A DNA stretch of 29,231 bases from a virus. Position numbers and translations under genes: made by a program. How positions within the stretch are numbered: position 1 is the stretch's first letter; each line of letters opens with the position of its first letter. The notes under the pieces were generated by a model that was given only the letters and a program-made list of their open reading frames with translations, was not told the DNA's origin and did not search any database. The stretch lies in IMG/VR virus record IMGVR_UViG_3300044613_001440, positions 1 through 29,231 of that record; one strand, given 5' to 3'. Shown piece by piece: positions 11,029 through 16,497 of this stretch.

Positions 11029-11202
11029 ATGTACACAATAATAGATGAGTCAACTAACAAGGTATTATTCGCTAAATTTGATAATGAAGTTTTAGAAGGT
11101 CAAGTGGCTATTAATAAAGTTTGTATTATTGAAAGGGAAAACCCTTTTGAATCGGAAATATTTTATAATTTTGAAACCGAACAATTTTACACAAAACAAT
11201 GA
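11029..11202 (+). CDS. Small hypothetical protein (57 aa)
   Basis: ATG at 11029, 2 nt after the fibre stop; its stop overlaps the holin start by ATGA. The acidic product (MYTIIDESTNKVLFAKFDNE...FYNFETEQFYTKQ) has no recognised domain. It may be a tail-fibre accessory or simply a leader coupling fibre and holin genes; both are inference from position. Confidence 0.6.
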   Translation: MYTIIDESTNKVLFAKFDNEVLEGQVAINKVCIIERENPFESEIFYNFETEQFYTKQ

Positions 11203-11615
11203 AAACCAAACTACTTTTTTTAGCACCTCTTACAATTTTAGCACCAATAAAACCACTTGTTTTACTTGCGATAGCTTCAATCATTTTAGATACTTGCTTT
11301 GGTATTTGGCGAAGTTGGAAAAAAGGAAATAAGATTCGTTCCCGTAGACTTTCACATACAATTTCTAAGAGCCTTTTATATAGCGGTGCAATAGTATTTA
11401 TATTCTTATTAGAAAAGTTTGTTATAAGCGATATTTTAGGGCATTTTATAGCTATTGATTTGATTATGACTAAAATGTTTACTTTCTTTTGCATTGCTAC
11501 TGAATTGAAATCCGTTAATGAAAGTTACGAAAGTGTTACGGGTGTTGATATTTGGAAAAAAATGTTTGAATTCTTTAAAAGGAGTAAAGAAACTATCAAT
11601 GATTTGAAAGAATAA
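11199..11615 (+). CDS. Phage holin
   Basis: 138 aa with about three hydrophobic segments: residues 5-32, 58-78 (LLYSGAIVFIFLLEKFVISDIL) and 80-105. Between the first two lies a Lys/Arg-rich segment (WRSWKKGNKIRSRRLSHT). The C-terminal part is charged and ends in KETINDLKE. This order (hydrophobic N-terminus, basic loop, second and third helices, conserved TELKSVNES segment) fits the class of holins related to phage_holin_4. It would form the inner-membrane lesion that starts lysis. The endolysin and spanin candidates lie 4 kb away. Confidence 0.8.
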   Translation: MKTKLLFLAPLTILAPIKPLVLLAIASIILDTCFGIWRSWKKGNKIRSRRLSHTISKSLLYSGAIVFIFLLEKFVISDILGHFIAIDLIMTKMFTFFCIATELKSVNESYESVTGVDIWKKMFEFFKRSKETINDLKE

Positions 11616-11658
11616 TTAGTAAATTCGTACTTTCATATTCGTTTTTTTAAAGGTTAGG

Positions 11659-11690
11659 AAAACCGTTTGTTAATTCAGGCGGTTTTTTTT
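11659..11690 (+). terminator. Rho-independent terminator after the holin
   Basis: The stem AAAACCG with CGGTTTT (7 bp, 14-nt loop) ends in eight T residues. It closes the late virion/lysis operon. Its T-run lies directly ahead of the -7 box of the next promoter. Confidence 0.85.
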
Positions 11691-11699
11691 ATATATTTG
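11666..11699 (+). promoter_or_regulatory. Promoter of the tmRNA-like gene
   Basis: A perfect Bacteroidota -7 box (TATATTTG at 11692-11699, followed by C) stands behind a TTTG at 11666-11669. The spacing of 22 nt is on the long side. Transcription would start around 11705, just before the 3' acceptor half of the tmRNA-like gene. Confidence 0.65.
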
Positions 11700-11704
11700 C
11701 ATCG

Positions 11705-11959
11705 TTAAACTGTTAGTTTATATTTGGACGAGGGTTCGACTCCCTCCACCTCCACAAGTGTTGTCAAGCACTAAGTGAAAGTTAGGCAAACACAAACCTT
11801 TCACTTATTTATATTAGGGGGTGTACTTGGATTTCGACAGATGTAATAGGTTAAACAACAAATTTAAACGGAAACGTTATTCAAATGTATCCACAACTTA
11901 GAGCAACTGCCTAAATTGTAGAACAAAATTAAGCCACGAATAATAGTAGTGGCTTTTTT
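11705..11959 (+). ncRNA. ssrA: Circularly permuted (two-piece) tmRNA-like RNA
   Basis: The upstream part is a tmRNA 3' half: a T-arm (stem GAGGG at 11730-11734 with CCCTC at 11742-11746, loop TTCGACT) followed by acceptor strand CACCTCC (11747-11753) and discriminator A (11754). It matches Bacteroidota tmRNA 3' ends, but CCA is not encoded. The downstream part is a 5' half: GGGGGTG (11817-11823), then a D-loop-like TACTTGGATTTCGACAG. The two acceptor strands pair over 7 bp with one G-T. Helix P2 can form between 11845-11859 and 11712-11724. The linker (11755-11816) holds a perfect 10-bp hairpin. A possible tag frame starts at GGA 11870 (GNVIQMYPQLRATA, stop at 11912-11914), but this part is uncertain. 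The gene has its own promoter and terminator. This order (3' half, spacer, 5' half) is that of permuted tmRNA genes, which are cut into two pieces and rescue stalled ribosomes. Confidence 0.78.
11931..11959 (+). terminator. Rho-independent terminator of the tmRNA-like gene
   Basis: AAGCCAC (11931-11937) pairs with GTGGCTT (11949-11955) over 7 bp with an 11-nt loop and leads into TTTTTT. It defines the 3' end of the permuted RNA precursor. Confidence 0.85.
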
Positions 11960-12010
11960 ATGCCTAATTTTCAGATAGTTAAAAAATAATTGCAAAATAA
12001 TATCACATAA

Positions 12011-16310: not shown

Positions 16311-16318
16311 TATCTTTG
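16311..16318 (+). promoter_or_regulatory. Promoter of the 16323-16457 ncRNA (-7 box)
   Basis: TATCTTTG followed by C is a perfect TAnnTTTGC box immediately after a terminator. No clear TTG is seen at the -33 position. Transcription would begin around 16323, and no protein gene follows before the next terminator. Confidence 0.55.
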
Positions 16319-16322
16319 CTAT

Positions 16323-16457
16323 AACAGTACCTGTTACGGTTCTCGTTGGAACACCGCACCCGAATAGGTCATTTTACGTAAAGGAAAGCGGAAACGTATA
16401 ACTTATGACGAACCCCCTTGTAAGACTATTGACGAATAGAAACTGCAAGGGTTTTTT
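16323..16457 (+). ncRNA. Structured non-coding RNA, about 135 nt, unassigned
   Basis: A transcript from the -7 box at 16311-16318 to a terminator at 16411-16457 would contain no ORF of note. It folds into successive hairpins: AACAG/CTGTT; CGGTTC with GAACaCCG; GTCAT/ATGAC enclosing TACGT/ACGTA with loop AAAGGAAAGCGGAA; and the terminator stem with inner CTATT/AATAG. Flanking terminators and its own promoter mark it as an independent gene. I do not recognise the family. Confidence 0.6.
16411..16457 (+). terminator. Terminator of the ncRNA
   Basis: CCCTTG (16415-16420) pairs with CAAGGG (16446-16451), extended by outer A-T pairs, and leads into TTTTTT. The 25-nt interior holds a small hairpin CTATT/AATAG. 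Confidence 0.75.
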
Positions 16458-16497
16458 ATGCTCAATAATTTATTTTCAATTATTTTTAATAAAAGTA

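Follow-up and report, generated by a model that had tools for sequence, protein, structure and literature searches.

Results

A two-piece tmRNA gene in a Bacteroidota phage

An IMG/VR virus record with a length of 29,231 bases (hereafter the window) contains, at positions 11704 to 11959, a stand-alone gene for a tmRNA (the RNA that frees stuck ribosomes) of the two-piece, circularly permuted type. Very probably, the phage uses this gene to make a minimal two-piece tmRNA that performs ribosome rescue with a tag of its own. The window is a virus of Bacteroidota bacteria, possibly with an incomplete genome, as a 29-kb record may be a fragment. Terminase, portal, capsid, and tail genes are present, and the nearest relatives of the terminase belong to Flavobacterium phages (45%). 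The tmRNA gene is flanked by a holin gene (11199-11615) on one side and by a small, regulator-like gene on the other, and no SmpB gene was found in the 29-kb record. Three DNA methyltransferase genes also lie within this 29-kb phage record (13730-14536, 16985-17614, and 24443-25678).

All parts of the gene are on the plus strand. A preliminary description had proposed a promoter and a terminator of the gene's own, and both are there. The −7 promoter element, TATATTTG at 11692-11699, is of the Bacteroidota type (TAnnTTTG) and is preceded by an upstream TTTG at 11666-11669; transcription is expected to start near 11704. Of 44 family members, 19 have TAnnTTTG at this position, where 1.3 would be expected. 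The intrinsic terminator (11931-11959; AAGCCAC-loop-GTGGCTT, then a T run) has a folding z of −4.1. The terminator loops of the window (11938-11949), L205, and L214 have GAATAATAGTAG / GAAGCATAGTAG in common across phages.

The acceptor (3′) piece comes first (11704-11754) and comprises the 3′ strands of P2b and P2a, a T-arm (GAGGG-TTCGACT-CCCTC, 11730-11746) whose stem covaries in relatives, the acceptor 3′ strand CACCTCC, and the discriminator A11754. CAA follows A11754; CCA is not encoded, as had been noted before. The coding (5′) piece (11817-11956) contains the acceptor 5′ strand GGGGGTG, the D-loop, the 5′ strands of P2a and P2b, the tag frame, H5, and the terminator stem. The acceptor strands (G11817-G11823 with 11747-11753) pair at 7/7 positions, and the single G-T pair of the preliminary description is the sole wobble, G11819-U11751. 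This is G3-U70, the alanine identity pair. The D-loop-like sequence could likewise be located, as the motif GGATTTCGACAG at 11829-11840. P2, which had been thought able to form across the spacer, is better than claimed. Its 5′ strands (11838-11856; fixed-register pairing test and covariation) form P2a with 9 bp (11838-11846 with 11718-11726) and P2b with 7 pairs and one A-A mismatch (11849-11856 with 11704-11711). The tag reading frame, GNVIQMYPQLRATA*, runs from the resume codon GGA to the stop codon TAA (11870-11914), and the P5/H5 hairpin (11893-11919) has this stop codon in its 3′ strand.

Between the two pieces lies an intervening segment, a 62-nt spacer (11755-11816) that folds into two hairpins (z = −2.9), one of which had already been recognized. 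The stem of the second hairpin is kept by compensatory changes in the near-copy L092 (AAGTGAAAG/CTTTCACTT to AAGGGTAG/CTACCCTT), and a hairpin with the inner motif GUUAGG...CAAACC is common to the spacers of the window, L205, L209, and L190. The kept hairpin and the common inner motif suggest that the spacer has a role beyond filler. The spacers of L204, L120, and L088 contain CUAAC-CCGU-CGC-GUUAG-U-ACGG (and variants), which resembles a small pseudoknot with stems that covary by eye.

Family models and covariation

The Rfam model for permuted tmRNA (RF04321, tmRNA_permuted) matches 11695-11960 above its cut-off (48.4 bits versus 47; E = 8.4e-7 over all families), a score that is marginal when taken alone. 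None of the alpha-, beta-, and cyano-tmRNA models of Rfam reached its own cut-off, in a list that left out four lower-scoring tmRNA-clan matches. ARAGORN, also proposed as a check, called no tmRNA on the window; it called the relative L205, with the tag GNVIEMFPKLRAVA*.

Viral contigs were scanned with sequence patterns, which yielded 94 permuted loci; further scans that did not constrain acceptor positions 5-7 yielded 14 and 48. G1-G4 and their partners were fixed in all scans, and the 94-locus scan fixed the whole acceptor by its pattern. Because the other acceptor letters were set by the search patterns, the acceptor covariation signal rests on positions 5-7. A covariance model and alignment were built from 36 loci, some of them from the 94-locus scan, chosen partly by exclusion of ANDE-type tags, with the window and its near-copies L084 and L092 left out. 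This held-out model scored 92.7 bits on the window (E = 2.5e-16), 94.4 bits on L084, and 89.5 bits on L092, and had no match in 80 other loci around the neighboring holin gene.

Across the acceptor, T-stem, and P2a of the 36 loci, 87.9% of cells were paired versus 74.1% (SD 1.0) in shuffles, and 109 cells had changed on both sides versus 40.4. No shuffle reached the observed pairing or double-change value, and pairing fell to 48-57% when partners were slid out of register. The acceptor was 100% paired in these loci; two of its pairs are variable and show 10 and 16 double changes, and double changes occurred at all 8 pairs of P2. G3-U70 was present in 36/36 aligned relatives, its letters being demanded by the search patterns. 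Among 48 loci, fixed-register pairing of P2a was 73% versus 54% (SD 2.2) with shuffled partners (z about 8.7); a best-helix search without fixed register placed P2 barely above shuffled partners. Covariation in relatives, a check that the preliminary description had proposed, is strong, and with the RF04321 match and the held-out model, it bears out the proposal that a phage carries a circularly permuted tmRNA whose halves are very short. A chance fusion involving an integration remnant is ruled out, because the same permuted order recurs, with the tag, in dozens of unrelated phage contigs.

A conserved tag without PK1

The tag frame had been called speculative; it is now well supported by homologous tags, synonymous bias, and H5. 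Homologues of GNVIQMYPQLRATA* are GNVIEMFPKLRAVA (L205), GKVVNLFNAPLRATA (L194), GKVVQMYNPSLRAVA (L192 and L199), DKVINMFSPSLRAVA (L204), and GKTINFFRPTLRMAV (L088). All end at a stop codon, mostly with a conserved TAA(A/C)N-GG context before them, and for several relatives the tag predicted by ARAGORN is identical. Tag codons of the window and L205 differ by five synonymous and four non-synonymous changes (P = 0.014), and those of the window and L092 by three and one (P = 0.013); the one synonymous and two non-synonymous changes relative to L084 are not informative. The P5/H5 hairpin has a z of −3.4 in the window and −2.8 to −3.2 in L084, L092, and L205, with a mean of −1.2 over 36 loci. Many relatives have Leu-Arg codons (CUUAGA) in the H5 loop, and RNA structure may therefore explain part of the tag conservation.

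The window tag ends in LRATA rather than the canonical C-terminal (A)LAA, and none of the 36 model members, a set from which ANDE-type tags had partly been excluded by choice, has a tag ending in ALAA. LAA is the tag end that ClpX reads. One-piece tmRNAs of five Bacteroidota genomes have the tags GENNYALAA, GEYNYALAA, or ADDYSYAMAA; judging from these sequences, the window tag is probably phage-specific, unlike that of the host. Two other permuted tmRNAs (L105 and L116) have unusually long tags of 28 residues, with ALAA at the end.

The 5′ half lacks PK1, as the preliminary description had suspected. P2a and the resume codon are 24 nt apart in the window and 23-38 nt apart in the group, versus 51-80 nt, with a PK1-like hairpin, in the ALAA-type permuted tmRNAs that served as controls. 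In 34 phage-type loci, this interval forms no stable hairpin (mean z 0.05), and the window has no PK1 of the kind that characterizes the alpha-, beta-, and cyano-type subgroups; PK1 is apparently missing throughout the phage group. Downstream of the tag there are only H5 and the terminator. The molecule would consist of a tRNA-like domain, P2, tag, and H5, and we infer a working, minimal two-piece tmRNA that is probably pseudoknot-free. A functional molecule of this size, roughly 54 and 140 nt for the two pieces, would rank as about the smallest tmRNA with a tag that we know of; it would also test naturally whether PK1 is needed and help to address why phages supply a ribosome-rescue tag of their own. 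The tmRNA of E. coli requires PK1 or a substitute hairpin, and fewer pseudoknots are known in two-piece tmRNAs (PMC3968760).

Proposed function and alternatives

One short transcript would extend from about 11704 to the terminator at about 11955, and host tRNA-processing enzymes would cut out the 62-nt spacer, with RNase P freeing G11817 and the 3′ side being trimmed at A11754 before CCA is added. The acceptor stem and P2 would hold the two pieces together. Host alanyl-tRNA synthetase would charge the RNA through G3-U70, and the charged RNA, with host SmpB and EF-Tu, would enter stalled ribosomes of the infected cell. Translation would resume at GGA 11870, add A-GNVIQMYPQLRATA, and end at TAA 11912 inside H5, so that tagged peptides are predicted to end in ...AGNVIQMYPQLRATA. 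The benefit to the phage would be extra ribosome rescue, with its own tag replacing the ...YALAA tag of the host. Counting against rescue by a minimal tmRNA are the lack of PK1, of SmpB in the record, and of LAA at the tag end, as well as the absence of the gene from most phages of the group and the marginal RF04321 score.

It is unlikely that the RNA is instead a decoy, charged or SmpB-bound, that mainly blocks host tmRNA, as reported for molecules having only a tRNA-like domain (DS6A). The RNA is small and free of pseudoknots, its tRNA-like domain is intact, and phage RNAs reduced to a tRNA-like domain that resemble an inhibitor do exist (PMC4131195); however, the tag frame, stop codon, and H5 are conserved, the tag family is common to many phages, and a tag would be superfluous for blocking. 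Acquisition from a bacterial host of a two-piece tmRNA of the usual alpha, beta, or cyano type would explain the identical gene order and a match to RF04321, which was built from Alphaproteobacteria, Betaproteobacteria, and Cyanobacteria (PMC11915505), but is made very unlikely by the short, PK1-free stretch before the resume codon (23-38 versus 51-80 nt), the different tag, the Bacteroidota promoter, and the one-piece tmRNA of the Bacteroidota genomes that we looked at. A functionless remnant, either in decay or newly captured, would fit the low Rfam score, the absence from most relatives, and the ARAGORN miss, yet is highly improbable given the synonymous bias of tag changes, the compensatory changes of the spacer stem between near relatives, and the intact acceptor, promoter, and terminator.

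Distribution and relation to known tmRNAs

The group was seen in 48 viral contigs and lives almost only in phages. Its pattern gave two matches, one of them false, in 84,980 bacterial and archaeal genomes, and permuted tmRNA was found in 2 of 395 Bacteroidota genomes, both within phage DNA (a prophage with integrase, antirepressor, and RecT; and beside phage-type DNA polymerase and helicase genes). Among six Bacteroidota genome matches of model R1, four were standard one-piece tmRNAs matched at the 3′ end. The Bacteroidota host tmRNAs that we read were one-piece, mostly with ...ALAA tags. We rejected an origin in a bacterial host, because bacterial genomes searched with the window terminase contained no relative and the matching Bacteroidota genomes carry permuted tmRNA in phage DNA only. 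Also set aside were a Cloacimonadota pattern match (L196), which has no tag, and the Cellulophaga phages phi38:1 and Calle_1 as a comparison, whose annotation and sequence fit standard-order tmRNA.

The novelty or rarity first ascribed to this gene was overstated. Genes of this kind were already known: Bacteroidota phages frequently carry permuted tmRNAs, and annotated ones exist in GenBank for crAss-like phages and MA9V-3. The crAss-like phages cr50_1, cr10_1, cr125_1, cr60_1, and cr114_1 have tmRNAs annotated as SsrA in GenBank. These are matched by model R1 and share with the window the permuted order, the short distance to the tag, the Gly-Asn tag start, and Bacteroidota phages as carriers, but mostly have longer spacers and tags such as GNFYVTDYTRIAA* and GNNFVTDYTQLAVA*. 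Chryseobacterium phage MA9V-3 (PV245944) has an annotated permuted tmRNA with a near-identical resume context, TAAACGGAAACGTTATT, and the tag GNVIDINKYVAKLEVAA*; it differs in the longer tag, the 103-kb phage, and another spacer. MA9V-3 was the nearest record when the L205 and L204 elements were blasted against phages, which gained no LRAVA-type isolate. Published two-piece tmRNAs of methylophage Melnitz and marine phages, also phage-carried but related to alphaproteobacterial tmRNA, limit novelty further (PMC9004378). A 2022 count comprised 53 two-piece phage tmRNAs, 50 from marine or aquatic samples (PMC9004378), and the entries of a tmRNA database from 2025 include 79 from phages and 11,946 that are permuted (PMC11915505). 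The tRNA-like-domain-only tmRNA of mycobacteriophage DS6A (PMC4131195) is likewise a reduced phage tmRNA, but has no tag, whereas the window RNA does. The window element resembles RF04321 in having the 3′ half before the 5′ half, the acceptor G3-U70, T-arm, D-loop, P2, spacer, and tag with stop; unlike RF04321, its coding piece is shorter, without PK1, its tag lacks ALAA, CCA is not encoded, and it is borne by a Bacteroidota phage.

The group is already in databases; we found no published description of this Bacteroidota-phage tmRNA group, its missing PK1, or its tags in the accessible literature (few subscription journals), and the crAss-like phage papers that our search located do not discuss such tmRNAs, as far as the search showed. 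Two-piece tmRNA has been described as having arisen in three bacterial lineages. Our findings point to another two-piece lineage, one that resides in phages while their hosts retain one-piece tmRNA. We tentatively raise the possibility, without favoring it, that this is a fourth, phage-only lineage of Bacteroidota phages, pseudoknot-free and with a phage-specific tag (...LRAVA/LRATA/LRMAV), whose rescue would compete with the host one-piece tmRNA and whose products would have different fates.

An insertable cassette

Comparison with relatives that have an empty site, such as L003, places the whole cassette at 11692-11954. In L003, L007, L009-L012, and L017, the counterpart of 11600-11692 joins straight to that of 11954 onwards; the L003 holin is 96% identical to that of the window. 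Near-copies of the element are present in L084 and L092 (90-91% identity), and L004 is the empty counterpart of L084. Because the empty site in close phage relatives is exact, the gene is an insertable cassette that carries its promoter and terminator along. It is also dispensable, since tmRNA was present in 0/80 neighbor-gene loci and is lacking in most phages of the group.

A second conserved cassette (AACAGTACCTGTTACGGTTCTCGTTGGAACACCGCACCCGAATAGGTC...), apparently non-coding, lies at 16311-16460 of the window, 4041-4180 of L005, and 5473-5611 of L092. It has a promoter-like TATCTTTG and a terminator and occurs in nine viral contigs besides the window; its L005 copy had no match in Rfam. 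This cassette directly follows the tmRNA in L092 and stands alone at the tmRNA insertion site in L005, while the window copy is elsewhere.
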